From: Pseudomonadota bacterium
GTDB taxonomy: Bacteria > Desulfobacterota > Desulfobacteria > Desulfobacterales > RPRI01
Assembly: GCA_018901125.1 (NCBI GenBank)
Contig: JAHIFE010000072.1
Location: 1-54,495 of the forward strand
Length of the DNA stretch: 54,495 bases
Reading direction: 5' to 3'
Part shown: positions 19,456-40,609 of the stretch, piece after piece
Layout: each line of letters starts with the position of its first letter
Numbering within the stretch: the first letter of the stretch is position 1
The notes under the pieces: model-generated
What the model saw: the letters and a program-made list of their open reading frames with translations, nothing else
The model's database searches: none
What the model was told of the DNA's origin: nothing
Position numbers and translations under genes: made by a program

Positions 19456-20853
19456 TTATCTGTTGCCGTATCTTTTGTCGACGATTCTTCTTTTCTGCTG
19501 CCTGCCCCCTCTTCTTAAAATACCTGCTTCTACAAACTGGATTTCGGGATTTCCCATAAGCCCTTCTTCCATATTTTTCTTAACAGACGGTACGGAATTT
19601 ATGCAGCCGATGATCCTGGCTGTTAAATCATCCGGATTTTTCAGCACCTCAACACAGCATTTAATATGATTCCGGCCGTCTTTTCTGGTGATAAATATTC
19701 TGTAATCTATCAGCTCAGGAATGGCGTATAATCTGTCATCAAAAAGAGATGTATATATTTTATCGTCTTCTCCTATATTGACCATCAGTGCTTTTCTTCT
19801 TGGAATTTCACCGATTCTAAGCAAAGTACAAGCACCACATTCACAGGGACTTCGGATAAGCCGGGCAAGATCTCCTGTACGATAGCGAATCAAAGGCATG
19901 CCAATACGATTTAAAGTAGTAAAAACCAGCTCTCCTTCCTCTTCTTCATTATTTATCGGTTCACCTGTTTTAAAATCTACTATTTCAAAATAAAGATCAC
20001 ATTCATTAAAATGGTATCCCTGATGTGCTGTGCATTCTATACCGATAGCAAAGCCAGGTTCTGTCATTCCGTAATGATGGTATACTTTTGCATTCCAAGC
20101 TTTTTCTAAAGCCTTCCGCATGGCAGGGGAAAGATATTCGGAGGTAATAAATACGAATTTTACGCCAATATCGGCCAGATCAAAAACAGACTCGGATTCT
20201 TTTGTTATGCGCCATATGCGAAAGGCTGATCCCATGATCATATCCGGTTTAAATGCTTTTATGCTTTCAATTTGAGGTCGGGTGGGACTATCGCATTGGC
20301 CGATTAATGGGATGCCGTTAAGATTTTTTACTCCTTTTGCGATCATTCCGGCCATACTAAGCGGAGGAGCATTATCAGGCAAAAATATCTGAACTCTGCA
20401 TCCGTCAAAACAAAACTGATCGTTTCCATCTGAAATAACCGTATGCATTATGGCTGCCATGGATTCGATGATTGCATCTGCATCCTGCTGCGCGAAAAAT
20501 ATTTTTTTGGGTTTTCCGGTAGTACCTGTTGTAAAATGGCTGTATATCCTGTCAATTTTTCCCAATGAAACACAAAGAAGCTTATATGGGCTGTTTCTTA
20601 AATCATCGGGTTCGGTAAAAGGTAGATGTCTGATACTTTCAAGAGAATCAATTTTGGCGATTTTATCTTTAAGAGGTTTATAAAATACGCTGTTATCGGC
20701 AGCATAGCAAAGTGTCTTTATCAGCCTGTCAAGCTGATACTGCTCAATATCCTTACGGGTCAGGCAGTTTGGGCTTTGACCGAATTGTTTTCGGGAGTAG
20801 TTTTTATTAAAAGAATTTTTAATTCTGTTATGAATCCAATTTTCCAGGATCAT
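19456..20853 (-). CDS. Phenylacetate-CoA ligase-like AMP-forming ligase (module A)
   Basis: 465 aa, like PaaK or coenzyme F390 synthetase. Adenylation motifs are clear: TTGTTGKPKKIFF (P-loop type), HHYGMTEPGFAIG, and LIRYRTGDLARL. A Cys pair region (CECGAC) near 340 may bind zinc. It should activate a carboxylic acid to its CoA thioester through an acyl-AMP. It is the last gene of module A, directly after the MaoC-like gene. The paralogue at 31188-32555 holds the same end position in module B. Substrate unknown; aromatic or other organic acids are plausible from family knowledge. Confidence 0.85.
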   Translation of the reverse strand: MILENWIHNRIKNSFNKNYSRKQFGQSPNCLTRKDIEQYQLDRLIKTLCYAADNSVFYKPLKDKIAKIDSLESIRHLPFTEPDDLRNSPYKLLCVSLGKIDRIYSHFTTGTTGKPKKIFFAQQDADAIIESMAAIMHTVISDGNDQFCFDGCRVQIFLPDNAPPLSMAGMIAKGVKNLNGIPLIGQCDSPTRPQIESIKAFKPDMIMGSAFRIWRITKESESVFDLADIGVKFVFITSEYLSPAMRKALEKAWNAKVYHHYGMTEPGFAIGIECTAHQGYHFNECDLYFEIVDFKTGEPINNEEEEGELVFTTLNRIGMPLIRYRTGDLARLIRSPCECGACTLLRIGEIPRRKALMVNIGEDDKIYTSLFDDRLYAIPELIDYRIFITRKDGRNHIKCCVEVLKNPDDLTARIIGCINSVPSVKKNMEEGLMGNPEIQFVEAGILRRGGRQQKRRIVDKRYGNR

Positions 20854-20862
20854 TTTGCTTAT

Positions 20863-22017
20863 TTATCTTTCTCTATCGTTTATTCTTTTATCTATCGGCC
20901 CAAGCTTATCATTTCGTGATGGCAGTATAATAGTCGATTTTGCAGGCATAACATCATCACCTCTTTGATTAATAGCTTTTGATACTATATCAACACAGCA
21001 TTCTTTATTATCATCTATATATTTATCTGTAACATAGCCGGAAATTCTGATGGCATCCGAAAGATAAACCAGACCCTTGAATCTTGCATGGCTTCTTTTT
21101 ATCCAGCCCTTGTCACCCATCCAGTTAGTCAGAAAATGGATAAGCCAGCAATGCCTTTGAACAGCGGTATCGTATGGGTAAGGCAATCCGCATTCATTGG
21201 CTGCTTCAATATTATAATGCACACTAAAAACAGGTTCCATAGCGGATGTTTTGCTGTCTCTAAATGCCCAGGCAGGATGTTTACGGTAAGTTCTAAGTGC
21301 CGATCCGTGTGCCTGCAAAGGGACAGGAGAAGCGCCGATGCAAAAGGATATAATATCGGTTATCCCGAGAGGCCCTTTGATGATGTCGGATAATGCTTCC
21401 CCTTTTTGTACATCTTCAAAATAAAGCGGTTTTGCACCCCTATAATTTTCTGCAAGCACATGATCTTCGATTTCTTCCAGTTCATGTAGTTTCCAGGGGT
21501 GAGGCAATTTGATATTTTTACGGTAAACATCCTTTTCCTCCAGGCGCCGTTCAACCCTGAATGCAGATGAGTTTACGCTGGCTACTAAATGTCCGTCCTG
21601 GTTTATATATTTTACTTCCTGCTGCTCAAAAACGGATTTTCCGTATAATTTGCTGTTGACCTTTTTGCACCCTGTCAAAAAACATTGAGGACTGATTCGG
21701 TCATTTGCCAGAACAGGTTTGTTGTATTGCCAGTCTACACTTGTTTGTAATGCGTGAACTCCAGGCAAACCCTGCAACACCCAAGTAGGAAGAACGCTGT
21801 TAAGCCATGAAGGAGGAGCTGGAATTGTTTTATAAGAAGTTGAAGCCGCATAATTTTCATCTTGCCACAAAATATTGGGATCACCTATGCCGTCGGCGAA
21901 TTTTTTAATCGCATCTTCTGTGGCGACACTGTTAAATTGATAGTTGACGCGAAGTTGTGTTCCTACCCGGCTTCTCATTTCTTCAAAGGCTGCATCCGTA
22001 ATTTTACTCTTTTCCAT
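20863..22017 (-). CDS. MaoC-like / FAS1-type double-hotdog dehydratase-like protein (module A)
   Basis: 384 aa. The N-terminal half (YQFNSVATEDAIKKFADGIG, then PSWLNSV and DWQYNKPVLANDRI) matches the N-terminal MaoC dehydratase-like hotdog. The second half (LYFEDVQKGEALSDIIKGP, then HARFKGLVYLSDAIRISGYV) is a second hotdog. Such proteins hydrate enoyl-CoA or dehydrate hydroxyacyl-CoA. The strict catalytic D-x4-H of R-hydratases is not obvious, so activity is uncertain. It lies between the radical SAM and ligase genes, where module B has no counterpart. This suggests that the module A pathway handles a CoA thioester with a hydration or dehydration step. Confidence 0.72.
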   Translation of the reverse strand: MEKSKITDAAFEEMRSRVGTQLRVNYQFNSVATEDAIKKFADGIGDPNILWQDENYAASTSYKTIPAPPSWLNSVLPTWVLQGLPGVHALQTSVDWQYNKPVLANDRISPQCFLTGCKKVNSKLYGKSVFEQQEVKYINQDGHLVASVNSSAFRVERRLEEKDVYRKNIKLPHPWKLHELEEIEDHVLAENYRGAKPLYFEDVQKGEALSDIIKGPLGITDIISFCIGASPVPLQAHGSALRTYRKHPAWAFRDSKTSAMEPVFSVHYNIEAANECGLPYPYDTAVQRHCWLIHFLTNWMGDKGWIKRSHARFKGLVYLSDAIRISGYVTDKYIDDNKECCVDIVSKAINQRGDDVMPAKSTIILPSRNDKLGPIDKRINDRER

Positions 22018-22025
22018 ACACTCTT

Positions 22026-23429
22026 TTATCCATAATAATTGCTCGGCCCGGGCTGTATTTTTTTGTGCAGATTGTCACCTTGCGAGCCGGTCAAATAGTA
22101 GCTGCAAAAAGGAATCAGCCGTTTATCAGCAGATATTACATGGATACAGCAGCCCTTAAGTCTTTTAAGATCAATTGTCCAGGCATCCATAAAAGGCATG
22201 CCGGATATGGATAAATAGTGAGTCTGAATACGTTCGTAAAAATTATTAAAAAGTCCGTTTGGCGTTTTGCATGAACATTGTTGTACTACAGGTTCTATAA
22301 ATCTTGATTTTTCAGTTATAAAGCGACGCACATGAGCAGTCGGGCTTTCTTTCTTTTGGCTTTGTATACATGTTGCTTTGTTTTCAATAAGAGTGGATTT
22401 ATCGGGATGAAAACGGGTAGTCGCCTGTAGTTTTCCCTTATCATTTAAGATATAAAATCCTGAAAATCCGCAATGAGAATCCATTTTCCTGCGGGGCTGG
22501 AAATCATGAGCCTTGATTTCACCAGAGGTTTGAATTTCAAGCAATCTTAATATTTCAGGAGTAGTAATTCTGCTTTCATTTGATGGGCAAAAGTTATAGC
22601 GTCCGGAATAGGTAACAGGCTGGAAATGAATTCCTTTAATAACCGGCATATATTTTTTTGCAAAAAACAGAATATCTCCTAGTTGAGAGTCGTTTATCTT
22701 CGGAATTACAGTTGGCACCAATTGAACACCCAGCTTAACCTCAGAGCAGTTTTCAACCGCTTTTATCTTAATATCAAAAAGGTTTGTTCCTCTTATTATT
22801 TGGTAAATATCATCTGTCACACCATCAAATTGAAGATAAATCAAATCAGTTCCGGCATCTTTTAAAGCCTTTAAATAAACTTTGTCTTTTGCTATCCTGA
22901 TGCCGTTGGTATTAATCTGGACATGACCCAACCCGGCATTCTTTGCAACACTCACAATTTCAGGAAGATCATCTCTTACGGTCGGTTCACCGCCACTTAA
23001 CTGGATAGGACAGTTTCCGGCAGCAGCCACTACCGCTTCACACATTTCCTTAAGCTGATTAATATCCGGGGTATTTAAAGAAGACTGCTGACGATTACCG
23101 GCAAAACAAGTCGGGCAGGAAAGGTTACATCTATCTGTTACTTCCATTAAAACAGTACAGGTATCCGCCTGGTGTTCCGGGCATATCCCACAATCTTTCG
23201 GACATCCTGAAATGGTTTTCGTCTGTTTTTCCTGAAGCGGCTGTGAGAATTCTCCGTGGCCCCATTCTTCATATGTCGGATCACCTCTCCAGATTACGGT
23301 TTTAAATTCGCCATGATCAGGACAGGTTTTTTTAATAAAAACATCTTCTTTTTCTAAAATCTTTACAGCCGGTATTACAGCAAGACAATGAGGGCAAAGG
23401 CTTGTTGTCTCGCCTATAATTTTTTGCAT
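22026..23429 (-). CDS. Radical SAM enzyme, MJ0619/Tes-like architecture (module A; TrsS-type)
   Basis: 467 aa. An N-terminal knuckle uses C12, C15, C36 and H39 (LCPHC ... CPDHGEF), followed by a CPKDCGIC cluster (76-83). The radical SAM motif CNLSCPTC spans residues 101-108, with QLSGGEPTVRDD and IHFQPVTYSGR after it. C-terminal cysteines occur in CSC and CCIHVISADKRLIPFC. This layout resembles the MJ0619/tetraether synthase (Tes) group, which acts at unactivated carbons, and I recall the label TrsS for the version found beside aldehyde oxidoreductases. The reaction is unknown. It lies between the methyltransferase and MaoC-like genes; its paralogue is at 32555-33973. Confidence 0.82.
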   Translation of the reverse strand: MQKIIGETTSLCPHCLAVIPAVKILEKEDVFIKKTCPDHGEFKTVIWRGDPTYEEWGHGEFSQPLQEKQTKTISGCPKDCGICPEHQADTCTVLMEVTDRCNLSCPTCFAGNRQQSSLNTPDINQLKEMCEAVVAAAGNCPIQLSGGEPTVRDDLPEIVSVAKNAGLGHVQINTNGIRIAKDKVYLKALKDAGTDLIYLQFDGVTDDIYQIIRGTNLFDIKIKAVENCSEVKLGVQLVPTVIPKINDSQLGDILFFAKKYMPVIKGIHFQPVTYSGRYNFCPSNESRITTPEILRLLEIQTSGEIKAHDFQPRRKMDSHCGFSGFYILNDKGKLQATTRFHPDKSTLIENKATCIQSQKKESPTAHVRRFITEKSRFIEPVVQQCSCKTPNGLFNNFYERIQTHYLSISGMPFMDAWTIDLKRLKGCCIHVISADKRLIPFCSYYLTGSQGDNLHKKIQPGPSNYYG

Positions 23430-23511
23430 TTATCAATCCTGTTTCATATTCGAATATCGAATTGCGAATTTCGCTTTCCTGTTCCCTGAACCCCGATCCC
23501 TGATCCCTTTT

Positions 23512-24291
23512 CTACAATGGTTTGCGAAAAGAAAATACAGCATATCCCGGTTTGCTTTCTGCAAAAAGTCTTTTCCACTCAATTTGCGGATCAGTGCCGT
23601 TTTTGACGGTTGAGCAGCAGGAAATACTTCTGCCTGCAAACTGCTTCCAGAAATCATTTAATGAACCATAGCCTGAGATCAATCTTAAAGCGATTTTTTT
23701 TAATTCAATGGAATGGTCTTCAAATAGGTCATATTCCAATCCAGCTTTAGAAAATACTTCAATGTATCCATCTTTTGTCAATGCACCGGTAAAACAACAA
23801 TTAAAAAGAACCTCATCTTTTAAATCGGAGATTAAGGGATGATTTAAGATAACATCGGACATCGAGAATTTGCCGCCCGGTTTAAGAACACGTATAATTT
23901 CTCTTGCAACTGTTGTCTTGTCAGGAAACAGAGAAAAAGCACATTCCGTAATAACCGCATCAAAAACCGAGTCGGCAAACGGCAATGATTCGGCATCGGC
24001 TAAACAAAATTCTGCTTTATTAGAAAGCGGCAACTTTTGGGCTTTTTTCCTGGCAAGAGATGATGATTCAAGCGATAAATCCGTGCCTATAACCCGGCAA
24101 TCAAAAACATCGGAGATAAAACAAGCGCTTGATCCTCTGCCGGATGCAATATCTAAAACCAGATCTCCATTTTGAATACCGGCTGATTCGGCGGTTTTCT
24201 TTGTGAGTTCCAATCCGCCGGGATGTAATATCTCATCCAAGACCTGATTAAACTCATTTGCTTCATAGGCTTTAACAATAGAAGATTTCAT
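23512..24291 (-). CDS. Class I SAM-dependent methyltransferase (module A)
   Basis: 259 aa. SAM-binding motif I is VLDIASGRGSSACFIS, with acidic motif II in VIGTDLSLES, then LADAESLPFADSVFD and VLKPGGKFSMSD, as in UbiE/ArsM-like methyltransferases. An unusual shared block in the C-terminal half, CCFTGALTKDGYIEVF, corresponds to SSCLSGAMSREEATDVV in the module B paralogue at 34620-35339. The conserved cysteine there may be functional. Substrate unknown. About 80 bp separates it from the next gene; that gap holds short self-similar AT-rich and GATCCCTGA-like repeats. Confidence 0.82.
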   Translation of the reverse strand: MKSSIVKAYEANEFNQVLDEILHPGGLELTKKTAESAGIQNGDLVLDIASGRGSSACFISDVFDCRVIGTDLSLESSSLARKKAQKLPLSNKAEFCLADAESLPFADSVFDAVITECAFSLFPDKTTVAREIIRVLKPGGKFSMSDVILNHPLISDLKDEVLFNCCFTGALTKDGYIEVFSKAGLEYDLFEDHSIELKKIALRLISGYGSLNDFWKQFAGRSISCCSTVKNGTDPQIEWKRLFAESKPGYAVFSFRKPL

Positions 24292-24311
24292 GAAAGCACA
24301 GCTTTAATTTT

Positions 24312-24500
24312 TTATCCGAACTTTGCTTCCATTTCGGCTTCGGTTTTGTTCATTTCCATGGCGACTTCTTCAGTTATAAATTTAATCTTGCATCCGGGGC
24401 ATTCCAGACCGCTTTGGAAACCAAGCATTTCATAATAAATTAAGGAAAGATCTTTTACTTCCATAGGTTTTTCACATTTACAGCATTGCCAGTTTGCCAT
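24312..24500 (-). CDS. Small zinc-ribbon-like redox protein, DVU_1557-like (module A)
   Basis: 62 aa. The pattern is WQCCKCEKPM ... LECPGCKIKFITEE, two CxxC knuckles suited to zinc or rubredoxin-like iron. The paralogue at 35326-35538 has WKCYKC ... PVCPQCGFVFISEE. I recall this family as the DVU_1557 redox protein, always beside the methyltransferase. It lies 2 bp after the 92-aa gene and 20 bp before the methyltransferase, so it is tightly coupled. Confidence 0.78.
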   Translation of the reverse strand: MANWQCCKCEKPMEVKDLSLIYYEMLGFQSGLECPGCKIKFITEEVAMEMNKTEAEMEAKFG

Positions 24501-24502
24501 TT

Positions 24503-24781
24503 TCAGCTCTCCTCGTCAAAAGCGCTTTTAACACAATAAGCAGTATGAATTTTATAGATATCAGCCTCTTTTGAATACCGGACAAAATAAAGCGCATTGC
24601 CGATAGTCTTTTTTCCTAAAAATTCATTATTGCCGGTATCGCAAAGCTTTTCATTTGTTGTTTCGGAATCATAAATTACCATTTTAAGCTCATCATCGGA
24701 AATGCCTCTTGATTCCAGCAGTTCCGAAACTTCAGAGCTTTTGTTTATATTAATTGTATCGTATCCTTCCACATTGCTCAT
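24503..24781 (-). CDS. Stand-alone form of the C-terminal domain of the module oxidoreductase
   Basis: 92 aa. It aligns with about the last 85 residues of the 757-aa oxidoreductase of module B: SEVSELLESRGISDDELKMV parallels SEVWQILEDRRILVTDLEEV, and ALYFVRYSKEADIYKIHTAY parallels TFWLEYTTSDNGFTIYNAYS. The order relative to the oxidoreductase is the same in both modules, so this is a gene fission or fusion. The role is unknown; a docking or accessory subunit for the oxidoreductase is the simplest inference. It starts about 30 bp after the 829-aa oxidoreductase ends. Confidence 0.7.
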   Translation of the reverse strand: MSNVEGYDTININKSSEVSELLESRGISDDELKMVIYDSETTNEKLCDTGNNEFLGKKTIGNALYFVRYSKEADIYKIHTAYCVKSAFDEES

Positions 24782-24812
24782 TAGTTACTCTCCTTTGTTT
24801 ATCTGCAAGGCT

Positions 24813-27302
24813 TTATGAATAAATCTCAGTAAGCTTTGCCTTTAAATAGGATTGGTTTTCTTTTTTGATATTTGCCGGATTAGGCGGCTTTGCCTTAATC
24901 TCATCCCAGTTGGGATTAAACAACAGATCAAGAACATGAATAGTAGGTTTGTGTTGAGCCAGAGCTTCCCTGCATGTAGCACAATAAGTAAGAATATCGT
25001 GTTTTGCTTCTTCTACTCTTTTTTTGGTGATTTTTTGGGCCAGATCAAAAGAAGCAAAAGCTATCATACCTCCCATACCGCAGCAAAGGCCGTTTTCTCC
25101 ATGATGCTCCATTTCGATAATGCTGCTACCGGTTTGAGATACCAGTTTACGGATATTATCATGAATATCTTTTCTGAATCTGCCGGCGCAAGGATCATGG
25201 ATGGAAAATATACCTGTTTTATGACTATCTGCTAAAATTTTTCCCTCTTCGGCCAGAACATCATACAATGATCTTATTTTAATTCCAGAGGCACGCTGGT
25301 TTATAGTTCTAAGACAGTTAGGACAGGCCAGAATAAGCTCATCTGCCCCCATCCGTTTAATTTCATCCGTAAGATCTTTAATCATATTTTGAAATGATGC
25401 ATGATCTCCTAATGAACGGGTTGGATTTCCGCAGCATTTTAAAATAATACCCGTATCTTTATCGTTTGATATCAGCCAGTCATAAGCTGAAATTACAGAC
25501 TGCGGCGAATATGCCGACAGGTGGCAGCCCGGCATGAAAACCCTGCTGCTTTTTCTTTTATCAGGATTTGGAATGCTTAACATGAATTCATCCGATCTTA
25601 CCCAATCCTGATCTTTTATAACAAGCTTGTGCGTTGGAAGCGGGCCTTTGCCGCACTCAACCAGCTCTTGTTTTGCTTCGTTGCACATTTTTCCGATATT
25701 AAGTCCTTCGGGACATACTTTTTCACAAAGATCGCAAATATTGCAACAATATGGAATCGCCGGTCTTTTAATAAAAGCGCCATCTTTGTATTTGTTAACA
25801 AGATCTTTGGGGCTTTCGCAAAAATGATTTAGAAATTCACAATCCGTCATACAGCTTTTGCATTCACAGACAAGGCATCTTTGGGCTTCTTTAATCGCAG
25901 TTTTTTCATCAAAACCAAGTTCCACTTCATCAAATCCCAATCGCTTGTCAATAGCTGTTTCCGGCATTTTGGATCTTGGAATCGGTTTTGCGTCTTTTTT
26001 AAAAGTATCTTTTAAGACCTTATATGTCTTTTGTCTTCCTTCATAAAGATCCTGACCGCTTAAGTATCTGTCGATGGAAACGGCTGCTTCTTTACCGGCG
26101 GCAACAGCTTTGATAACAGTAGATGCACCTGAAACAACATCACCTCCGGCAAAAACTCCTGCCGTATTTGTCTGCATTGTAATCTCATCAACTACTAAAG
26201 TCCCCTGTTTGTTAAGTTCAGGCATTATCGGCAGTTTTGATTTATCTATGCTTTGACCAATTGCGATTATTACATTATCGGTATCTAAAACAAACTCTGA
26301 CCCTTTAACCGGTATGGGACGGCGTCTGCCGCTGGCATCTACTTCTCCCGGTTTCATTTCAAGACACTCAATGCCAATACATGTTCCGTTATTTTCAATA
26401 ATTTTAACAGGAGCAACATGAAAACGGATGTTAACACCTTCAAGCTCTGCTTCATTGATTTCAAGCGGATCAGCAGGCATTTCTTCACGGGATCTTCTGT
26501 AGATAATGTTTACATTATCTGCTCCAAGCCTTTTGGCTGCTCTGGCGCTGTCAATAGCAGCATTGCCGCCTCCGACAACAATTACCCGTTTTCCAAGAGA
26601 GGGTTTTTCGCCACAGTTAACAGCCCTTAAAAAACCAAGCGCGGGAAATACGCCGCTGTTATTCTCACCATACAAACCGGCATTTGTAGAAGCTTGTGCC
26701 CCAGCTCCCACAAATACTGCATCATAATTTCCATTGCCAAGCAGATTATCTATGCTAAGAACGGGCTGGTCAGTTTTTATCTCAACACCCAGTTCTCTGA
26801 TATATTCAATATCATTATCAAGACAAGTATCAGGCAATCTGTATGCCGGAATGCCATAGCGCATAAGCCCGCCTGTTTTCGGCATTGCTTCAAAAATGGT
26901 TACAAAATAACCTTTTTTTATCAGATCGTATGCACAGGAAAGACCTGCCGGTCCAGAACCTATAATTGCAACCTTTTTATCTTTGGTGATTTCGCAGGGG
27001 GCAGCCTTTTCTCTGCCGTTTTGAACTTCAAAGTCTGATACAAATCTTTTAAGAGCCCGAATTGCTATAGGTTGATCAATATTATTACGTTCACATTTAC
27101 TTTCGCAGGGGTATGTGCAAACTCTTCCGCATACCGCAGGAAAAGGCATGCTTTCTCTTATTACTTCCAGAGCTTTTTGAAACTCTCCTTGTGAGATTAA
27201 GGATATATATTTTCTTATATCAATATGCGCAGGACAGGCATCCTGGCATCGGGGATAAGCATCTGCATTACAGTTTGCAATTATTTTATCTATCTCTTTC
27301 AT
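24813..27302 (-). CDS. NAD(P)H/FAD oxidoreductase with Fe-S and CCG domains (module A)
   Basis: 829 aa. Domain order: an N-terminal GltD-type Fe-S segment (CQDACPAHIDIRKY, then CGRVCTYPCESKC, residues 10-70); a FAD domain with GSGPAG at 115-120; an NAD(P)H domain with GGGNAAID near 245; two [4Fe-4S] motifs (CCNICDLCEKVCP near 510); and two cysteine-rich CCG domains (PGC...KCCGNP...CPNC and HDPC...LCCGMGG...CATC). It looks like a complete electron path from NAD(P)H to an HdrB/D-like centre. It overlaps the activase by 4 bp, so it may supply electrons to the activase and dehydratase. GltD itself is excluded by the long Fe-S/CCG tail. Confidence 0.88.
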   Translation of the reverse strand: MKEIDKIIANCNADAYPRCQDACPAHIDIRKYISLISQGEFQKALEVIRESMPFPAVCGRVCTYPCESKCERNNIDQPIAIRALKRFVSDFEVQNGREKAAPCEITKDKKVAIIGSGPAGLSCAYDLIKKGYFVTIFEAMPKTGGLMRYGIPAYRLPDTCLDNDIEYIRELGVEIKTDQPVLSIDNLLGNGNYDAVFVGAGAQASTNAGLYGENNSGVFPALGFLRAVNCGEKPSLGKRVIVVGGGNAAIDSARAAKRLGADNVNIIYRRSREEMPADPLEINEAELEGVNIRFHVAPVKIIENNGTCIGIECLEMKPGEVDASGRRRPIPVKGSEFVLDTDNVIIAIGQSIDKSKLPIMPELNKQGTLVVDEITMQTNTAGVFAGGDVVSGASTVIKAVAAGKEAAVSIDRYLSGQDLYEGRQKTYKVLKDTFKKDAKPIPRSKMPETAIDKRLGFDEVELGFDEKTAIKEAQRCLVCECKSCMTDCEFLNHFCESPKDLVNKYKDGAFIKRPAIPYCCNICDLCEKVCPEGLNIGKMCNEAKQELVECGKGPLPTHKLVIKDQDWVRSDEFMLSIPNPDKRKSSRVFMPGCHLSAYSPQSVISAYDWLISNDKDTGIILKCCGNPTRSLGDHASFQNMIKDLTDEIKRMGADELILACPNCLRTINQRASGIKIRSLYDVLAEEGKILADSHKTGIFSIHDPCAGRFRKDIHDNIRKLVSQTGSSIIEMEHHGENGLCCGMGGMIAFASFDLAQKITKKRVEEAKHDILTYCATCREALAQHKPTIHVLDLLFNPNWDEIKAKPPNPANIKKENQSYLKAKLTEIYS

Positions 27303-31186: not shown

Positions 31187-31221
31187 GTCATATACCTTCG
31201 AATTCGCCGGAGGTATATGAC
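31187..31221. terminator. Hairpin between convergent genes, possible bidirectional terminator
   Basis: Perfect 11-bp arms GTCATATACCT (31187-31197) and AGGTATATGAC (31211-31221) around a 13-nt loop. It starts 12 bp after the stop of the dehydratase operon and overlaps the last codons of the convergent ligase gene. No T-run on either side, so the terminator role is inferred from position. Confidence 0.5.
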
Positions 31222-32555: not shown

Positions 32556-33973
32556 TATCGTCCCCGGTAAATTGGTATGTTTTGGCTGTCTGTAAGATTA
32601 TAAGCACAAAAGGGGATCAGGCGGCCGTCATTTGACACAGTATGGATACAGCAGTCCTTAAGACGCTCCAAATCCAGATTCCATATATCCTGAAAGGCCA
32701 TTCCCGAAATGGAAAAAGATCGAGTAAGTACAAAATCCAGAAAACCGTCAAAATCCATATCGCAGATTTCCTCTTCTTTCTTCTGCCCTACTCTTTCTGA
32801 TCCATGACAACCGTCAACCTGATCCCCAATCCCTGATCTCTGGGCTCTTATTCCACTCCACTGTCTGGCAACAGAAGTTATTGACTGTCTTGCTCCTATA
32901 TCGGCTTTTATCGGCTTATTGCAACAGGAACTATTTTCGGATATCAACGGCTTTAAATGTCCGCCGGACATCACAAGAAATTTACCGTTAAAAGAACAAA
33001 GAGCGTTTTCGCATCCGGGAGGACGAAAATCTGAGGCTCTTACCATCCCGTTGCTCTGGGTTTCAAGAGCCGTTATTATCTCAGGAATAGTAATGCGATT
33101 ATTATTATCTATGTTTTCCGGATGTCTTCCGAAATAACTGACCGGCTGAAAATGGATACCTCTTACCCCAGGATATTCTTTTAAAGCAAATTCCAGAATT
33201 GAGCCGATTTCATGAACATTTATCCCCGGAACTATCATTGGAACCAGCACAACACCAATCCCGGCTTTTGCGCATCGCTCTATTGCCAGCAGCTTTTTGG
33301 CAAGCAATTTTTGCCCTCTTAAAGCAAGATATGTTTTATCGCTGAGCCCATCAAACTGAAAAAAAACCGAAGCAAGACCTGCTTCTTTAAGCCTTGCCGC
33401 ATAATCTTCTTCCTCGGCCAAACGCAGGCCGTTTGTATTTAACTGGATAAATCCGAAACCCGCCTGTCTGCCGATTTCTACGATTTGCGACAGATCATCT
33501 CTTAATGACGGCTCGCCGCCGGAAAGTTGAATATTACTTGACGGAGCGGCTTCTTTGACCCGCTTAAACCAGAACTCTATCGTCTTAATATCAGGATCGG
33601 AAACAGCAGATTTTTCTGAGGATGCAAAACAATATTTGCAATTAAGATTGCAGCGCTGTGTGATTTCAAGAAGAGCTGTGCATGTGATCTGCCTGTGCAA
33701 AACACATAAACCGCAGTCAAAAGGACAACCTTTTGTAATTTCACTATAGCACACAGGAGGTTGAACAGGTACTTTGGGTTTTACCCATTTCTCAAAAGAC
33801 GGATCTTTACGCCATATTACTGCAGAAAATTTCCCGTGGGATTCACAGTGCTTTTCAAGATATACATCGCAGCCATCCGTTACCCTGAATGCCGGGATCT
33901 TTTCAAGACATACCGGACACAGGCTTTCCGTTTGTGATAAAACCCGGTACTCCGGAGATGCTTCAGTCTTCAT
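32555..33973 (-). CDS. Radical SAM enzyme, TrsS/MJ0619-like (module B)
   Basis: 472 aa from the ATG at 33973, which overlaps the end of the C_GCAxxG gene by 11 bp; a longer frame to 34012 begins with a non-ATG codon. C19, C22, C43 and H46 form the N-terminal knuckle, CPFDCGLC lies at 83-90, and the radical SAM motif CNLNCKYC is at 107-114, with QLSGGEPSLRDD and IHFQPVSYFGR following. Near residue 390 it has an extra segment (QWSGIRAQRSGIGDQ) absent from the module A paralogue. This segment is encoded by GATCCC-type repeats like those in nearby gaps. The C-terminal CCIHTVSNDGRLIPFC is conserved in both. Confidence 0.82.
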   Translation of the reverse strand: MKTEASPEYRVLSQTESLCPVCLEKIPAFRVTDGCDVYLEKHCESHGKFSAVIWRKDPSFEKWVKPKVPVQPPVCYSEITKGCPFDCGLCVLHRQITCTALLEITQRCNLNCKYCFASSEKSAVSDPDIKTIEFWFKRVKEAAPSSNIQLSGGEPSLRDDLSQIVEIGRQAGFGFIQLNTNGLRLAEEEDYAARLKEAGLASVFFQFDGLSDKTYLALRGQKLLAKKLLAIERCAKAGIGVVLVPMIVPGINVHEIGSILEFALKEYPGVRGIHFQPVSYFGRHPENIDNNNRITIPEIITALETQSNGMVRASDFRPPGCENALCSFNGKFLVMSGGHLKPLISENSSCCNKPIKADIGARQSITSVARQWSGIRAQRSGIGDQVDGCHGSERVGQKKEEEICDMDFDGFLDFVLTRSFSISGMAFQDIWNLDLERLKDCCIHTVSNDGRLIPFCAYNLTDSQNIPIYRGR

Positions 33974-34424
33974 AGCTACATGGATCAGACGGATCAAAAC
34001 CGTTTTGGACAAGAATTTCCATGACCTGATTATAGGTATCTGTAAGGAGCCGACCGCAGATATTGGAGTCCGGCACGCTTGCTTCTTCTCCTATAATATC
34101 TTTGCATAAAACCCCGTTGTAAGATGCACAGGCGGTTTGTTCAAACCATTCGCTTAACTCGGAATACATCAATGGCAGTTTTTCATTTTCCTTTTCGCTG
34201 TCTTCTCCTTTTGCAGCATATAAAGCAAGTATGCAGGCCGCACCGGTAAAAACACCGCAAGCATTTCCGCTGCCTGCCCCACCCATGCAAAGACCAGACA
34301 TTGCCCTCACAAGATCAGGATTTGTTTTGCCCTGAGCTTCCAATGCAAGGATTATCAGTACCTGGCTGCAACAGTATCCGCGTCCGGCCAGTTGCAATAA
34401 TCTGAAACCAATTTCGTCTATCAT
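33963..34424 (-). CDS. C_GCAxxG_C_C family redox protein, DVU_1555-like (module B)
   Basis: 153 aa. The family motif is present: RGYCCSQ, then GAGSGNACGVFTGAACIL, and later cysteines in CASYNGVLC and NIC. Members are redox or metal proteins of unknown chemistry, some with a C-terminal tail in anaerobes. It lies between the methyltransferase and radical SAM genes; module A has no copy. It overlaps the radical SAM start by 11 bp. An unusual inverted repeat (34455-34620) separates it from the methyltransferase. Confidence 0.85.
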   Translation of the reverse strand: MIDEIGFRLLQLAGRGYCCSQVLIILALEAQGKTNPDLVRAMSGLCMGGAGSGNACGVFTGAACILALYAAKGEDSEKENEKLPLMYSELSEWFEQTACASYNGVLCKDIIGEEASVPDSNICGRLLTDTYNQVMEILVQNGFDPSDPCSYED

Positions 34425-34454
34425 TATGTACTTCTCCTTAGGAGAAAGGGATCC

Positions 34455-34620
34455 ATGATTCGAGGATTCAAGGGTTCGAGTGTTTTTGATGTCGGGCCAA
34501 AACCCCTCGTTTTATGAAATGCTTTAGTCGTTTTATAAAGTTTAAGATATGGTTGATAAAGCTTTTACTGAACCAATAATTCTTTTGCATTTCGCTTGAA
34601 CCCTAGAATCCTTGAATCCT
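34455..34620. repeat. Imperfect long inverted repeat between module B genes
   Basis: Arms of about 28 bp: 34455-34482 (containing GGATTCAAGGGTTCGAG) and about 34593-34620 (reverse complement containing GGATTCTAGGGTTCAAG) match with around five differences. The element is about 165 bp, non-coding, and ends on the methyltransferase stop. The GGGTTC-type motif recurs at 37823-37880. Confidence 0.6.
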
Positions 34621-35339
34621 TAAATACCCTGTTTTTTGCGTGCAATCATCAGGAAATATCCCGGCCTGGCATCACGCGCAGATTGCTTGTCCCCGGAAGA
34701 ACAATTAACCGGCATCATTATATTCATAAGCATATCAAGCGAGCCCAACTTCCACACTATTTCGGCAGTAAGCTGCACCAGAGCATCTGAATGATCCTCC
34801 CACAAAAGCACATCAAAACCAGAGCTTTGCACCACATCGGTTGCTTCCTCACGACTCATGGCACCTGAAAGACATGAAGAAGCATGAGAACAATAGCTTT
34901 TTTGCTTCTTTCCAGGATTTCTTAAATAAATATCTGAAATAACCAAAAACCCTACTTTTTGCAACACCCTGTAAAATTCATTCAGAGCTTTGTTTCGATA
35001 AGATAACAAAGAAAGCACGCATTCGCAAAATACGCCGCTAAAACTATCGGCTGCAAATGGCAGCTCTTTGGCGCTTGATTGAACAAATGAGAACTCACCG
35101 GAAAACTCGGAAATATTAAGATCAATGCCGTAAACCGCACAACCATATTTTTGATGAAGATATTTAAGAGTCGCCCCGAAGCCGCAACCGATATCTATAA
35201 TTTTATCTTTTTGCAAAAACCCGCAGTAATCCGACGCTCTTTCGGTAAGAGCCAGACCTCCGGGCCTTAATGCATCACCAATGATTGAACGCAATTCAGA
35301 AGCTATGCCATAGGAGGTCATCTGTTCATTTATCTTCAA
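34620..35339 (-). CDS. SAM-dependent methyltransferase, DVU_1556-like (module B)
   Basis: 239 aa. SAM motif I is IIDIGCGFGATLKYL, with VYGIDLNISEF and LPFAADSFSGVF following. The shared block SSCLSGAMSREEATDVV corresponds to CCFTGALTKDGY in module A, and both C-termini end in a PGY-type strand (RPGYFLMIARKK; KPGYAVFSFRKP). This supports a common origin and probably a common substrate type. It overlaps the preceding zinc-ribbon gene by 14 bp. I recall it as the DVU_1556 or TrsM family; the methyl acceptor is unknown. Confidence 0.82.
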   Translation of the reverse strand: MKINEQMTSYGIASELRSIIGDALRPGGLALTERASDYCGFLQKDKIIDIGCGFGATLKYLHQKYGCAVYGIDLNISEFSGEFSFVQSSAKELPFAADSFSGVFCECVLSLLSYRNKALNEFYRVLQKVGFLVISDIYLRNPGKKQKSYCSHASSCLSGAMSREEATDVVQSSGFDVLLWEDHSDALVQLTAEIVWKLGSLDMLMNIMMPVNCSSGDKQSARDARPGYFLMIARKKQGI

Positions 35340-35538
35340 GAATCTGCTCTACTTCAGCCATTTTACCGAGAGCAAGTTCTTCGGAAATAAACACAAAACC
35401 GCATTGAGGACACACAGGAAGCTGGGCCTTGATTTTATTGCCCATATAAATTAAGGTTGCAGGACCTACAGATAAAAAGATATTACATTTGTAGCATTTC
35501 CATCTCAGATCTTCGGGACTGGCATAATTATTTTTCAT
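35326..35538 (-). CDS. Small zinc-ribbon-like redox protein, DVU_1557-like (module B)
   Basis: 70 aa. CxxC pairs in WKCYKCNIF and PVCPQCGFVF, then a helical acidic tail. Its start overlaps the stop of the oxidoreductase gene by one base and its end overlaps the methyltransferase start by 14 bp, so all three are translationally coupled. Same position as the 62-aa gene in module A. Confidence 0.78.
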   Translation of the reverse strand: MKNNYASPEDLRWKCYKCNIFLSVGPATLIYMGNKIKAQLPVCPQCGFVFISEELALGKMAEVEQILEDK

Positions 35539-37811
35539 TACTTTTCCTTCCCCGAAACAACCATCCGGTGACTGTAGGCATTATATATTGTAAAACCATT
35601 ATCAGAAGTCGTGTATTCTAACCAGAATGTGGTATTATACAGTTTCAACGAAGTTTTAAAATGCCTGGTGTCGGGGTTAAAAAACTTCTGGCCGCTTGTT
35701 TCGGCATGACGGATAACTTCTTCTAAATCAGTTACAAGTATTCTGCGATCCTCTAAGATCTGCCATACTTCGGAAGAAATATTTAATACTATTCCATCAT
35801 TATCTTTTCTATTAGTCTCATCTTTTGCCCAAAGATCACTTAGTAAATCGTGTTTTAACCGTAAACGGTTTTCCTGCCGCTGTGACCATCCTGGTCGTTT
35901 ACGGGCTGCCGGGACAGATTCGCCGTCTTTGTTAAAGATAAGATCCAGTATATGAACTGTTCGTTTTTCGGCTCCGGCAAGATTATCCCTGCAAACAGCA
36001 CAATAGGTCACATAATCTGCCGAACTTTTGCCGGCCAGTCTTTTTATAACTGTTTTTGCCAAATCAGGATTAGCATTTTGCATAAGGCCGCCATAACCGC
36101 AACACTCTGCATATTCGCGTTTTGCTGTCAGCTCCAAAAAAGGCTGATCTATCTTTTGCAATAAATTACGAACATTGTTTTGCAGTGCTGATTCGTATCG
36201 TGTAGTACATGGATCATGCAATGCAAGAGGCACATCAGATTTTATAACGGTGCAATCGCGCGGCAGGCCGGTTTCGTCCAGAATGCTCCATAAAGATACT
36301 ATATTGGCTTTATTAAGATTTTCCTTAAATATTTTATAACATGTGGAACAGGCTAAAATAATCTGGGGTCTGCCAAGATCCGCCCACTTGCCTGAAAATA
36401 TTGAAAATTGCTTTTCAAAAAGCTCTTCTTCTCCGGCCCAGAATGCCGGAGCATTGCAACATCCCAGCATGAGGCCTACACCGCCGCTTAGCGTTTCTCT
36501 TAAGTGTGCATAAACATTTTTTACTTTATCAGGAGAAGAGGCGCAAAGCTGGCATCCCGGGAAAAAAACATATGCGCTCGATTCATGACCCGTTTCATGC
36601 TGGGCCATGGCAAACCGGTCGCTGTTGCTAAACTGCATATCAAGCAATGCAAATTCATGAGCCGATACCGGCATCTTGCCCTTTTGAACCATATCCCTTC
36701 TTGCTTCAAGACACAGCGTCTGCATTGCAAAATTTTCCGGGCATATTGCCTCACACAAGCCGCATAGGCTGCATGAATTAACCAGTTTATTGGCCTGCCG
36801 CGGCCCCATGACAATAGATGAGTTATTGTAGATTTCCCTGGAATATTTTCTGGGATAAGAACCGAACTTCTCAAGATAGGAACAAGCCTTGACGCATTCA
36901 AGACATTCACAGTGTAAACATCGGCCTGCTTCCTGCATTGCCTCCTGGGGTGTATATCCCGATTCATCATCCAGAGGCTTTACTGCCGTAGCAAAAGCAA
37001 CATTATCAATATTGGTATAAAGACGGGTTGGAAAAGGGCCATCTTTTTCCCTTCCTGCCGTCTGCGATACCTTTTGCAAATAGCGATCTATGGAAGTTGC
37101 AGCCCAGCGGCCTTCTGCCGCCTGCCATACCGGAGACTTAGCTTTGTAATGTGAAAAACCTCCGGAAAAAACATTTTCCCGTTCTAAGAAATTTGAAGAT
37201 AAGCCGCCGTCATCCGGCCCAACATAGAGGGCATCAAATCGATTTAAAAGATCAGAAAGAAACTTTTCATCATCAACAGAAGAATTTAATACCGCTTCAA
37301 CACCCAGTGAGAACAGAATACCCAACTCTTCTCTCACCAGATCATGCGGTAACATTTCATCAGGCATTGAAAGCAGATTTTCTCCAAGTTCGCCACCTGC
37401 CTCAAATATTGTAACTTCGTAGCCCTTGCGAGACAAATCCCATGCTGCGGTTAGGCCACTTAGTTTACTTACTGCAATTGCAATACACTTTTCTTTTTTT
37501 GGAAGCGGTATAATCCGCTGCTTTGGTGCCTGTGTTTTCACACAAGCTTGCTCCAACATCCCAATCTCAATCGCTTGGCCGGCCCCTTTGCGTTTGCAAT
37601 ACTCTTTGCAAGGTGCATCGCATATACGGCCTAAAATACCGGGAAAAGGCATGGTTTTTCTTAAAATCTTCCACGCCTCTTCCCATTTTCCGCGCGCAAC
37701 ATTTGCTATAAAAGTACGGACATCTATATGAATAGGACAGGCTGCCGTACACTCAGGCGGTTCTTCCTGTATACATTTGCTTTCAATCAGCCGTAATTCT
37801 TTTTGATCCAT
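35538..37811 (-). CDS. Fe-S/CCG oxidoreductase with decayed flavin domain and fused C-terminal domain (module B)
   Basis: 757 aa from the ATG at 37811; an earlier TTG is possible. It parallels the 829-aa protein of module A: an N-terminal GltD-type Fe-S segment (CTAACPIHIDVRTF, then CDAPCKEYC); Fe-S motifs (CLHCECLECVKAC and CSLCGLCEAICP); and two CCG domains (PGC...GCC...CSTC and HDPC...CCGYGG...CAVC). The FAD fingerprint, however, is lost: AVSKLSG stands where GSGPAG should be (about 113-119), and the NAD(P)H domain is largely missing. The final ~85 residues equal the separate 92-aa protein of module A. It probably transfers electrons between Fe-S centres without NAD(P)H, next to the aldehyde oxidoreductase. 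Confidence 0.83.
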   Translation of the reverse strand: MDQKELRLIESKCIQEEPPECTAACPIHIDVRTFIANVARGKWEEAWKILRKTMPFPGILGRICDAPCKEYCKRKGAGQAIEIGMLEQACVKTQAPKQRIIPLPKKEKCIAIAVSKLSGLTAAWDLSRKGYEVTIFEAGGELGENLLSMPDEMLPHDLVREELGILFSLGVEAVLNSSVDDEKFLSDLLNRFDALYVGPDDGGLSSNFLERENVFSGGFSHYKAKSPVWQAAEGRWAATSIDRYLQKVSQTAGREKDGPFPTRLYTNIDNVAFATAVKPLDDESGYTPQEAMQEAGRCLHCECLECVKACSYLEKFGSYPRKYSREIYNNSSIVMGPRQANKLVNSCSLCGLCEAICPENFAMQTLCLEARRDMVQKGKMPVSAHEFALLDMQFSNSDRFAMAQHETGHESSAYVFFPGCQLCASSPDKVKNVYAHLRETLSGGVGLMLGCCNAPAFWAGEEELFEKQFSIFSGKWADLGRPQIILACSTCYKIFKENLNKANIVSLWSILDETGLPRDCTVIKSDVPLALHDPCTTRYESALQNNVRNLLQKIDQPFLELTAKREYAECCGYGGLMQNANPDLAKTVIKRLAGKSSADYVTYCAVCRDNLAGAEKRTVHILDLIFNKDGESVPAARKRPGWSQRQENRLRLKHDLLSDLWAKDETNRKDNDGIVLNISSEVWQILEDRRILVTDLEEVIRHAETSGQKFFNPDTRHFKTSLKLYNTTFWLEYTTSDNGFTIYNAYSHRMVVSGKEK

Positions 37812-37822
37812 AATAAACAATA

Positions 37823-37874
37823 GGGTTCAAATAGTAGAGACGCAAAATTTTGCGTCTCTACCTAATTTGAACCC
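37823..37874. repeat. Palindromic intercistronic element
   Basis: A perfect 28-bp palindrome (37834-37861; half-site GTAGAGACGCAAAA) sits inside flanking arms GGGTTCAAAT (37823-37832) and ATTTGAACCC (37865-37874). It lies between the aldehyde oxidoreductase stop and the 757-aa gene start. It can form a stable RNA hairpin, perhaps tuning expression of downstream module B genes. Confidence 0.8.
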
Positions 37875-37891
37875 TCGAACCCTTCTTTTTT

Positions 37892-40609
37892 TTATTTTTT
37901 CAAACCTGCCAGTACTTTTTCAGGCAAAGCAGGAAGCTTGGTGATTCTGACGCCTGTTGCATTTGCAATTGCATTGATAATCGCAACATGAGATGAGGTC
38001 AGAGGAAGCTCACCTACACCGGCTGCTCCAAAAGGTCCGTGTTCACGAGGTGTTTCCACATAATGGATATCAATTGAATCAGGGACATCTTTAGTATAGG
38101 GAAGACCGCAGGCAATCAGGTTTGTGTGCTTTTTCAGATCTTCAAAATCTTCCGTTAAAGCAAGCCCGATGCCCTGAGCGACTCCACCATAAATCTGGCC
38201 GTCTACTGCAAGGCGGTTGTTTATTTTACCTACATCGGCAAATACCGTGAACTTGTCCACCTTGGTTTTTCCAGTTTCTGTGTCTACAGTAACTTCAGCC
38301 ATGAAAACGCCATACATGTAAACTGAAAACGGTGATCCCTGGGCATTTTCATCGCAGGGCGTACATACGGATGCCGTCCATGCACCAGAATACTTGAGCG
38401 GGATATTTTCGGCTACCATTTCATCGTATGTGCGGTAAGATCCGTCCGGTTTGCGCATGGCATTTAACAGCATTTCACAACCGTTTTTAATGGCGTTTCC
38501 TGTCACTACCTGCTGGCGGCTTCCGCCCGAAGGCCCGCTGTTTGGAACTTTTGCAGTATCATTCATCACAAGTTTGATCTGATCCGGTTTGATTGCAATA
38601 GGCAAAAGCCCTTCATGGCAGGTGCCTAAAGCGCCGATGTCTGCACCCTGACCATGATCTTCCCAGCCTGTGCTCAAAGTTACGCCGTCTTTTGTTAATT
38701 CAATGGCTATTTCGGAAGCATCAGGGCCGTCAAGTCCGCAACCGTAAATTCCTATGGAAACACCAACACCCTTTTTCTTGGACGGATTTGATCCTTTTTT
38801 ACATTTTTCCATCGCATCCTTATATAAAGGCCGCAGTTTATCAATCATTCCAGAAAGACTGTATACATCCGGGGCCTGCCCGGTAGGTGTTGTATCTCCC
38901 TTGCGGTAAACATTGATAGAGCGAAGTTCAAGAGGATCCATGCCCATCTTTAAGGCCAGTTCATCCATTAAACTTTCAGATGCGAAAAAGCTTTGAGGCG
39001 AACCGTAAGATCTGAAAGCAGAACCCCAGGCATGGTTTGTACATACTGTCCTTCCCAAACCTCTGATATTTGGAGTACCGTAGCCCGCTCCTATAAACTG
39101 TGCCCCGCGCAGAGTAAGAAGATCTCCAAACTCGGAATAAGGTCCGTGATCAACGCTCCAGTCGCTTTCCATGGCAAGAAGTTTGCCACTCTTATCGGCG
39201 CCTAATTTAAGATTGACAAAGAAGGGAGAGCGTTTTCCGGTATATGTTATATGCTGAAAATAATCGTACTTTAATGTAACAGGTTTGTTTACGGCCATTG
39301 CAGCCACACCCAGCAGTGCCTCCATTGTTGGGCTGAACTTGTATCCAAAAGTTCCGCCGGCCGGGTTTTGTATTATTCTGAGTTTTTCCGGCTCAATTCC
39401 CAATCCCGGACAAATCATTGCATGATGAAGATGTATTCCAATGCTTTTGGATTGAATGGTAAGCCTTTCTTCTTCGTCAAAATAAGCAAGCCCAACGTCA
39501 GGTTCCATAGTAAGATGGGGCTGGCGCTGCAGATAAAAATTATCTTCAACTGTATATGCAGCCGAACTCATAACTGGCGCTGTTTCACCGCCTTTGGCAA
39601 TTTTTTGTTCAAAATAAATATTTGGCGTTCCGGGATGAATTTCCATTGCATCTTCCGCCATAGCAGCAGGAGCACTCATATAAGCAGGAAGTTCTTCCAG
39701 ACTCACTTTAACTTTATCTGCCGCTGTTTTTGCGTTGCTTTCCGTATCTGCCGCAACGATTGCAATGGCATCCCCGAATTGAAATACTTTCTCATCGCAA
39801 AGGATAGGACGATCCCAGCCGTCGCCTTTGTTTGTAGGAAAGGTAATCAAACCGGTAATCCGGTTCTTGCCTTTAACATCCTTATGGGTGATAACTTTAA
39901 CGACCCCGGGCATTTTTTCCGCTTCCGAAGTATCTATGGAAAGAATTTTGGCATGTGAGGTTTTTGCCTGAACAAGAGCAAGACGAAGCGTACCTACAGG
40001 CATTTTAAGGCCGATATCAGCCCCGTAGTCTGTTACACCGGTTACCTTGTCAATAGCGCTGGGCCTTGGATACTTGCTCCCCCAGATCCGGTTGTCAGCA
40101 GGCATCTTGAATGCAAGATCATCCTCGGTTATTTCACCACGAAGGACTTTGGCAGCATCCACAACTGCGTCAACAAGGGGTATATAGCCGGTGCAGCGGC
40201 AGGCATTACGGTGTTTTTGAAACCAGTCTCTTACATCGTCTCTTGTGGGTTTTGGATTTGTATCAAGAAGGCCCTTTGACGAAACAATGAATCCAGGGCT
40301 GCAAAAACCGCACTGAGCGCCGCCATGCACGGTCCAGGAAAGCTGAAGCGGATGGAGTTTTTCCGGGCTTCCGATTCCTTCAATTGTTGTGATACAGGCA
40401 CCTTCGGGAACCCTGTTCATTTTTGTAACACAGGATCGAACAACTTTTCCATCCAATAAAACCGAACATGACCCACACTGTCCCTGCCCGCAACCAACCT
40501 TTGTTCCTGTCAGTTTCAGCTGTTCGCGCAAAGTATCTGCTAATGAAGTTTCGGAGTCCGCCACAACAACAATTTTTTTCCCATTGACGTTAAGATTCTT
40601 CTTTATCAT
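37892..40609 (-). CDS. Molybdenum aldehyde oxidoreductase, Desulfovibrio MOP/DVU1559-like (module B)
   Basis: 905 aa, near the 907 aa of D. gigas MOP. Two [2Fe-2S] clusters: Cys40/45/48/60 (plant ferredoxin type) and Cys100/103/136/138 (CGFC ... CRC). The molybdopterin domains follow with no FAD domain, which separates it from three-domain xanthine dehydrogenases. The catalytic glutamate is Glu867 in GVGELPLTSS, equal to Glu869 in MOP. It oxidises aldehydes to acids at a Mo centre, probably in the cytoplasm: there is no signal peptide. A GGAG lies about ten bases before the ATG. It heads module B. Confidence 0.95.
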   Translation of the reverse strand: MIKKNLNVNGKKIVVVADSETSLADTLREQLKLTGTKVGCGQGQCGSCSVLLDGKVVRSCVTKMNRVPEGACITTIEGIGSPEKLHPLQLSWTVHGGAQCGFCSPGFIVSSKGLLDTNPKPTRDDVRDWFQKHRNACRCTGYIPLVDAVVDAAKVLRGEITEDDLAFKMPADNRIWGSKYPRPSAIDKVTGVTDYGADIGLKMPVGTLRLALVQAKTSHAKILSIDTSEAEKMPGVVKVITHKDVKGKNRITGLITFPTNKGDGWDRPILCDEKVFQFGDAIAIVAADTESNAKTAADKVKVSLEELPAYMSAPAAMAEDAMEIHPGTPNIYFEQKIAKGGETAPVMSSAAYTVEDNFYLQRQPHLTMEPDVGLAYFDEEERLTIQSKSIGIHLHHAMICPGLGIEPEKLRIIQNPAGGTFGYKFSPTMEALLGVAAMAVNKPVTLKYDYFQHITYTGKRSPFFVNLKLGADKSGKLLAMESDWSVDHGPYSEFGDLLTLRGAQFIGAGYGTPNIRGLGRTVCTNHAWGSAFRSYGSPQSFFASESLMDELALKMGMDPLELRSINVYRKGDTTPTGQAPDVYSLSGMIDKLRPLYKDAMEKCKKGSNPSKKKGVGVSIGIYGCGLDGPDASEIAIELTKDGVTLSTGWEDHGQGADIGALGTCHEGLLPIAIKPDQIKLVMNDTAKVPNSGPSGGSRQQVVTGNAIKNGCEMLLNAMRKPDGSYRTYDEMVAENIPLKYSGAWTASVCTPCDENAQGSPFSVYMYGVFMAEVTVDTETGKTKVDKFTVFADVGKINNRLAVDGQIYGGVAQGIGLALTEDFEDLKKHTNLIACGLPYTKDVPDSIDIHYVETPREHGPFGAAGVGELPLTSSHVAIINAIANATGVRITKLPALPEKVLAGLKK

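Follow-up and report, generated by a model that had tools for sequence, protein, structure and literature searches.

Two branches of a TrsS gene set in one genome, beside a molybdenum aldehyde oxidoreductase and a predicted ATP-driven CoA-thioester enzyme

The gene set around the radical S-adenosylmethionine (SAM) protein TrsS already has NCBI family names, and its combination with an aldehyde oxidoreductase is the DVU_1553-1559 type, part of the aldehyde oxidoreductase locus DVU_1551-1559 of Desulfovibrio vulgaris (NF045645, NF045646, NF045663-NF045669). The papers found on the DVU-numbered genes are of the proteomics type, none of them dealing with the function of the TrsS set, and a search for the set combined with a dehydratase or ligase returned nothing relevant. 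Here, we analyse a stretch of 54,495 nucleotides from a bacterium of the Desulfobacterota (assembly GCA_018901125.1, contig JAHIFE010000072.1, positions 1 to 54,495; hereafter the window), in which one such set (module B) is accompanied by a related block (module A) and by hgdS and hgdL, a dehydratase-like gene pair that lies between the two modules on the plus strand, opposite to both.

The described counterparts of this pair are (R)-2-hydroxyisocaproyl-CoA dehydratase HadBC with its activator HadI (PDB 3o3m), class I benzoyl-CoA reductase BzdNO (PDB 8s02) and the double-cubane cluster protein DCCP with DCCP-R (PDB 6eno, 7yyl). Cys95, Cys128 and Cys380 of BzdO ligate the catalytic aqua-[4Fe-4S] cluster, and the other subunit holds a second cluster, which is [4Fe-5S] in 2-hydroxyacyl-CoA dehydratases (HAD; HadC) and [8Fe-9S] in benzoyl-CoA reductases (BCR), six cysteines of BzdN serving the double cubane (PMC11971306). 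The described counterpart of TrsS is the tetraether lipid synthase Tes (PDB 7tol).

The account that we favour, and to which we give an even chance, is that one and the same portable anaerobic gene set is present in the window as two branches of ancient divergence, the set comprising TrsS, a DVU_1556 methyltransferase, a DVU_1553 ligase, a small redox protein, a 92-aa domain and a CCG oxidoreductase. Branch B would serve a molybdenum aldehyde oxidoreductase, and branch A would serve HgdS/HgdL and an activase, a predicted ATP-driven radical enzyme of the HAD/BCR superfamily, by the mechanism set out below.

Recurrence and ancestry of the two modules

Every gene of the two colinear minus-strand blocks of related genes described in the initial annotation was found at its place and on its strand (Table 1). 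Read 5' to 3', module A runs activase, oxidoreductase, 92-aa domain, zinc-ribbon, methyltransferase, TrsS, MaoC-like protein and ligase, and module B runs aldehyde oxidoreductase, oxidoreductase, zinc-ribbon, methyltransferase, C_GCAxxG protein, TrsS and ligase. By family-model searches, the genes common to both are homologous far beyond chance: TrsS, ligase, methyltransferase and the DUF7479 zinc-ribbon (40 bits in A and 91 in B, cut-off 27) exceed their cut-offs in both modules, the ligase of A barely so (301 against 300 bits). Module B is the DVU_1553-1559-type set that the initial annotation had named, with all seven family models above the curated cut-off and in order. In module A, on the other hand, only TrsS, ligase, methyltransferase and the oxidoreductase model (over the C-terminal half of A_ox) pass; the block lacks the C_GCAxxG gene and any NF045668 aldehyde oxidoreductase, and has instead a MaoC-like gene, an activase and a complete flavin domain of the NAD(P)H type. 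In other B loci, the ligase is followed by XdhC and nucleoside triphosphate (NTP)-transferase genes, which are missing after B_lig; an XdhC-type aldehyde oxidoreductase maturation gene, with matches in separate frames, lies on another contig of this genome (G000:C233 4897-6290).

The 92-aa domain is indeed present in both blocks, but it is a separate gene only in A; in B it forms the C-terminus of the 760-aa oxidoreductase, A_92 matching positions 673-752 of NF045663. The predicted A_92 model (predicted local distance difference test, pLDDT, 90) has its best structural matches among BrnT/RelE-like folds, weak ones with Z 7.8 over 74-77 residues. Such a fold is unexpected beside redox enzymes (24503-24781 and 35541-35825 in the window), and with Z middling it was not adopted as the function of the domain.

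The initial annotation had named recurrence of the module A arrangement elsewhere as a test of its reuse, and the arrangement (hgdS, hgdL, activase, 92-aa domain, zinc-ribbon, TrsS, ligase, with or without MaoC, methyltransferase and oxidoreductase) was found in five further genomes of two phyla. HgdL was searched against 395 genomes of the phylum, nine of which held relatives at E 1e-30 whose surroundings were then read; a GTDB scan gave a Chloroflexota metagenome-assembled genome (MAG; JABMQN010000059, L135/G769), and a TrsS search of 245 genomes from its class, in which hgd was not a query, gave a second Chloroflexota genome, G878. The congener G005 carries a complete module A with hgd (84-100% identity), with module B and its aldehyde oxidoreductase on other contigs. 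In another family of the phylum, G595 has hgdL, hgdS, hgdL, activase, 92-aa domain, zinc-ribbon, methyltransferase, TrsS and ligase, while the CCG half of its oxidoreductase is encoded on the opposite strand, and G463 has hgdL twice, activase, CCG half, 92-aa domain, zinc-ribbon, methyltransferase and TrsS. The Chloroflexota MAG shows the full set including MaoC, and G878 shows hgdS, hgdL, activase, 92-aa domain, zinc-ribbon, TrsS and ligase. Orthologues of A_maoC (57-60%) stand beside A-type ligases in G769 and G463. A model search for NF045668 gave no match in the four genomes outside the genus, nor in G495 and G428. Overall, hgd and activase genes occur at six of eight A-clade TrsS loci, and at none of 27 B-clade loci outside the window, most of which have the aldehyde oxidoreductase, several others being cut by contig ends. 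The arrangement is rare: among 400 genomes drawn from the phylum of the Chloroflexota MAG, a single one has an HgdL at E 1e-50. Good support thus exists for the view that the set is used again with a second enzyme, one not yet described.

Homologues of the PAS-LuxR regulator encoded next to module A also recur, beside module A in G005 (95%), the hgd module in G878 (47%, C-terminus), an hgd cluster in G463 and a second hgd copy in the window genome (72%).

The trees of shared families that the initial annotation had proposed were run by maximum likelihood for TrsS (40 rows), the ligase (34) and the methyltransferase (31), and they are congruent. The A proteins form one clade apart from B, with support of 100/99, 100/100 and 100/99, respectively, and in that of TrsS both together stand apart from Tes-like and other outgroup rows (98/96). 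Within the A clade, the nearest relatives outside the genus are the Chloroflexota MAG, G463 and G595, in all three families; one solitary methyltransferase homologue (L181) also falls inside it. Judged by these trees, the two modules represent old sister lineages brought together in this genome. The term paralogous, used in the initial annotation, is right at the level of the families and misleading in the sense of a local duplication.

Two simpler origins of the locus can be weighed against these data. Since the two modules lie next to each other in the window in colinear order, A could be a tandem duplicate of B that arose in this lineage and then swapped its partner. This is highly improbable and a recent event is ruled out, because the trees of three families give A a deep clade of its own, nearer to the Chloroflexota MAG than to B; moreover, the side-by-side arrangement was found in the window genome only, the modules of G005 lying on different contigs. 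The hgd pair could also have come to lie next to module A by accident of gene order, and its opposite strand in the window would fit this. We consider that barely credible, given that the association recurs in five other genomes from two phyla.

The HgdS/HgdL pair and its activase

HgdS and HgdL both match PF06050, the D-component fold of the HAD/BCR/DCCP superfamily, to which their PDB matches also assign them, and cysteine alignments of ten HgdS and 18 HgdL homologues bear out the earlier suggestion of a dehydratase-like pair and make it a divergent subfamily. The predicted HgdL model (pLDDT 90.7) is closest to 3o3m_A, the HadB-type catalytic subunit of 2-hydroxyisocaproyl-CoA dehydratase (Z 32.5, root-mean-square deviation 2.8 over 387 residues), with DCCP and BzdO behind at Z ~28.5. 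Cysteines C143, C171 and C407 of HgdL are invariant in 18/18 sequences and align with Cys95, Cys128 and Cys380 of BzdO, with a one-column doubt at C170/C171. Further, the activase A_act keeps Cys125 and Cys164, invariant in six homologues, and scores 288 bits with TIGR00241. HgdS, by contrast with the known second subunits, has no invariant cysteine among its ten homologues; the window protein has a cysteine at two of the six BzdN cluster positions and most homologues at none. A second cluster has probably been lost from HgdS, because its homologues, unlike both known classes, keep no invariant cysteine.

The pair thus differs from each of its described counterparts. It resembles HadBC-HadI in the fold of HgdL, the three cluster cysteines and the activase, but at only ~15% identity and with an HgdS devoid of the cysteines for the second cluster. 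With BzdNO it shares the fold (Z 28.5) and the three cysteines of the catalytic subunit, but it lacks the six-cysteine double-cubane set and has one activase gene rather than two (PQ). DCCP (NF040772) is the best NCBIfam match of both proteins, yet at 178 bits for HgdS and 59 for HgdL they remain far under the cut-off of 350, the cluster cysteines of HgdS are missing and there are two different subunits instead of one.

The MaoC-like gene and the ligase suggest that HgdS/HgdL is a CoA-thioester enzyme. A second hgdS/hgdL copy in the window genome (80-89% identical; L039 12165-14762, contig C143) has no activase or TrsS set nearby and lies beside 4-hydroxybenzoyl-CoA-reductase-like molybdenum genes (below cut-off) and the PAS-LuxR regulator; an aromatic or unsaturated acyl-CoA would be a reasonable guess at the substrate from these neighbours. 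Two other clues to the substrate were set aside: the thiolase at 16046-17401, which module A of G005 does not have next to it, and glycyl-radical activases in the vicinity of L117 and L135, whose best matches lie under specific cut-offs. The best family matches of this thiolase begin at about residue 100, and its first 100 residues hold an insertion-like stretch.

Among the genes near hgd relatives, a protein of 352-359 aa recurs (L039 16937-18016, with a weak Lipocalin_9 match; L044 13205-14263; L040 4654-5712). At L116, L118 and L154 (G463), hgdL or MaoC relatives stand beside genes for a two-subunit B12-dependent acyl-CoA mutase, the latter two loci also having periplasmic-binding-protein-like genes.

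Electron flow and the role of the shared set

The two oxidoreductases differ in their nucleotide-binding motifs. In A_ox, an intact FAD motif lies at 111 and a motif for NAD(P)H at 240, whereas none of 16 B-type oxidoreductases has both, 13 having neither and three the first (FAD) only; B_ox has no GxGxxG motif. In the Chloroflexota G769, a CCG half or protein stands beside NuoE/NuoF-like genes in place of A_ox, probably again an entry point for NADH. Because A_ox has both motifs and the B type at most one, the motif content suggests opposite electron flow, A donating electrons to an ATP-driven activase and B accepting them from aldehyde oxidation. The electron-supply or accessory role proposed in the initial annotation for the whole set is plausible for the oxidoreductase alone, on its domain content; TrsS, methyltransferase and ligase call for a different explanation.

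In the mechanism that we propose, NAD(P)H would reduce A_ox (NuoEF and the CCG protein in the Chloroflexota MAG), and electrons would travel by way of the CCG domains and the small redox protein as far as the activase, where ATP hydrolysis would raise one electron to the lone [4Fe-4S] cluster of HgdL. There, it would set off a radical reaction, either dehydration or reduction, of a CoA thioester, which the ligase would form and next to whose radical step MaoC would add or remove water. Branch B would run in reverse, with electrons moving from the aldehyde into B_ox, which has lost its NAD(P)H site. TrsS and the methyltransferase would most likely make or modify a component needed by both electron chains, the least certain step of the scheme. 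A more specific proposal is tentative, with the chances running against it: that branch A is an undescribed ATP-driven dehydratase or reductase of the HAD/BCR superfamily with a single Fe-S cluster, dependent on its own TrsS-methyltransferase-ligase cassette for a cofactor or carrier that the molybdenum aldehyde oxidoreductase also uses.

The TrsS of module A aligns with 7tol almost from end to end, the C-terminal cysteine block included (329 bits), and C-C coupling or alkylation by TrsS is possible because of this closeness to tetraether synthase. It is not Tes, however: against the Tes model (NF045702, cut-off 450) the A and B proteins score 374 and 358 bits, and their operon partners are of the TrsS type. 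Selenocysteine in TrsS was considered and rejected, as neither window gene is interrupted, and those TGA codons that were inspected in frame in two relatives (L098, L102) are plain stop codons. The ligases resemble coenzyme F390 synthetase at 83 and 105 bits, far below the cut-off; an argument from a missing A10 lysine was dropped, a one-residue gap leaving the position ambiguous. A_maoC had no match among PDB structures at E 0.001.

Several observations weigh against a dedicated service of branch A to HgdS/HgdL. The six-of-eight count is biased upwards, most hgd-linked loci having come from the HgdL query and G878 from TrsS alone, and in the two remaining A-clade loci (L141 and L142, in G495 and G428) C_GCAxxG, 92-aa domain, zinc-ribbon, methyltransferase, TrsS and ligase are accompanied by neither hgd nor an aldehyde oxidoreductase. 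G878 is without a nearby methyltransferase and oxidoreductase, G595 is without a MaoC of the A_maoC type, and the ligase and MaoC of G463 lie on contig C37, apart from the rest of the module. Moreover, the hgd enzyme would not always need the set in cis, because hgdS/hgdL relatives often occur without it (C143 and C49 of the window genome, three further loci of G463). The literature yielded no biochemical data for the shared set of either branch.

Two other readings of the set deserve attention. Block A could be an ordinary catabolic operon, in which ligase, HgdS/HgdL, MaoC, TrsS and methyltransferase act sequentially on one substrate and the likeness to B stems from kindred chemistry of the substrates, not from a shared service module. 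Ligase and MaoC are typical CoA-thioester enzymes, and hgd relatives do stand beside 4-hydroxybenzoyl-CoA-reductase-like molybdenum genes (L039, L124), B12 acyl-CoA mutases (L116, L118) and thiolase/HMG-CoA (3-hydroxy-3-methylglutaryl-CoA)-synthase-like genes (L124, L195; named by eye), which keeps this reading credible. We nevertheless think it unlikely, because one substrate pathway would not explain both contexts: ligase, TrsS, methyltransferase and redox proteins also form a conserved group beside the aldehyde oxidoreductase, and occur in sets with neither enzyme (L141, L142, L111, L112). Alternatively, the shared set might build a small-molecule or protein-bound cofactor by Tes-like C-C coupling or methylation through TrsS, with methyltransferase and ligase finishing a product used by both partner enzymes. 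The near full-length match to tetraether synthase and the distant likeness of the ligase to F390 synthetase speak for it, but no such cofactor is known and no methyltransferase was detected in the G878 locus, and we rate it as quite unlikely.

Since the TrsS set occurs with two catalytic enzymes that are unrelated to each other, it cannot be there just to mature the aldehyde oxidoreductase, and its role narrows to something that both partners need. The finding also draws attention to ATP-driven radical enzymes for CoA thioesters, of which one subfamily has probably lost the second cluster and could be used to probe what that cluster is for.

Gene content of the window and further TrsS contexts

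Table 1. Features of modules A and B, the hgd pair and the adjacent regulator gene in the window
Feature	Position	Strand	Predicted identity	Evidence
PAS-LuxR regulator	17797..19440	+	probable regulator of hgd/module A genes	Pfam PAS_3 and GerE
A_lig	19456..20853	-	PaaK-like AMP-dependent ligase, DVU_1553 family	NF045666 300.9 bits, cut-off 300; own clade with hgd-associated ligases
A_maoC	20863..22017	-	double hot-dog (FAS1-DH/MaoC) hydratase-dehydratase	PF13452 43.9 bits
A_rsam	22026..23429	-	radical SAM protein TrsS, A clade	NF045646 545 bits, cut-off 490
A_mt	23512..24291	-	SAM-dependent methyltransferase, DVU_1556 family	NF045667 164 bits, cut-off 155
A_zn	24312..24500	-	small two-CxxC (zinc-ribbon or rubredoxin-like) protein	PF24292 40.2 bits, cut-off 27; NCBIfam 32 bits, below cut-off 60
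A_92	24503..24781	-	92-aa domain protein	NF045663 positions 673-752, E 6e-13 (C-terminal domain of B-type oxidoreductase)
A_ox	24813..27302	-	NAD(P)H-type FAD domain, dicluster and two CCG domains	Fer4_20, Pyr_redox_2, CCG
A_act	27299..28099	-	acyl-CoA dehydratase/benzoyl-CoA reductase activase (ATP-dependent electron injector)	TIGR00241 288 bits, cut-off 125
hgdS	28577..29719	+	small subunit, HGD-D fold, cluster cysteines lost	PF06050 215 bits
hgdL	29765..31174	+	large subunit, three invariant predicted cluster cysteines C143, C171, C407	alignment of 18; model match 3o3m_A
B_lig	31188..32555	-	DVU_1553 family ligase	NF045666 465 bits
B_rsam	32555..34012	-	TrsS, B clade	NF045646 659 bits
B_cgc	33963..34424	-	DVU_1555 family C-GCAxxG-C-C protein	NF045669 177 bits, cut-off 103
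B_mt	34620..35339	-	DVU_1556 family methyltransferase	NF045667 226 bits
B_zn	35326..35538	-	DVU_1557 family redox protein	NF045645 88 bits, cut-off 60
B_ox	35538..37820	-	dicluster/CCG oxidoreductase, 760 aa, 92-aa domain fused C-terminally	NF045663 1022 bits, cut-off 530; both nucleotide motifs missing
B_aor	37892..40609	-	molybdopterin aldehyde oxidoreductase (Mop/DVU_1559 type)	NF045668 1673 bits, cut-off 1100

Beyond the loci discussed above, a B-clade set without aldehyde or CCG oxidoreductase lies downstream of a 604-aa acyl-CoA dehydrogenase at L111 (7283-11640) and L112 (8110-12080), possibly a third partner context. At L133 (8774-11242), a distant TrsS-like protein and a CCG protein are encoded beside proteins of 697 and 733 aa that look, by eye, like molybdenum enzymes of the dimethyl sulfoxide (DMSO)-reductase type.

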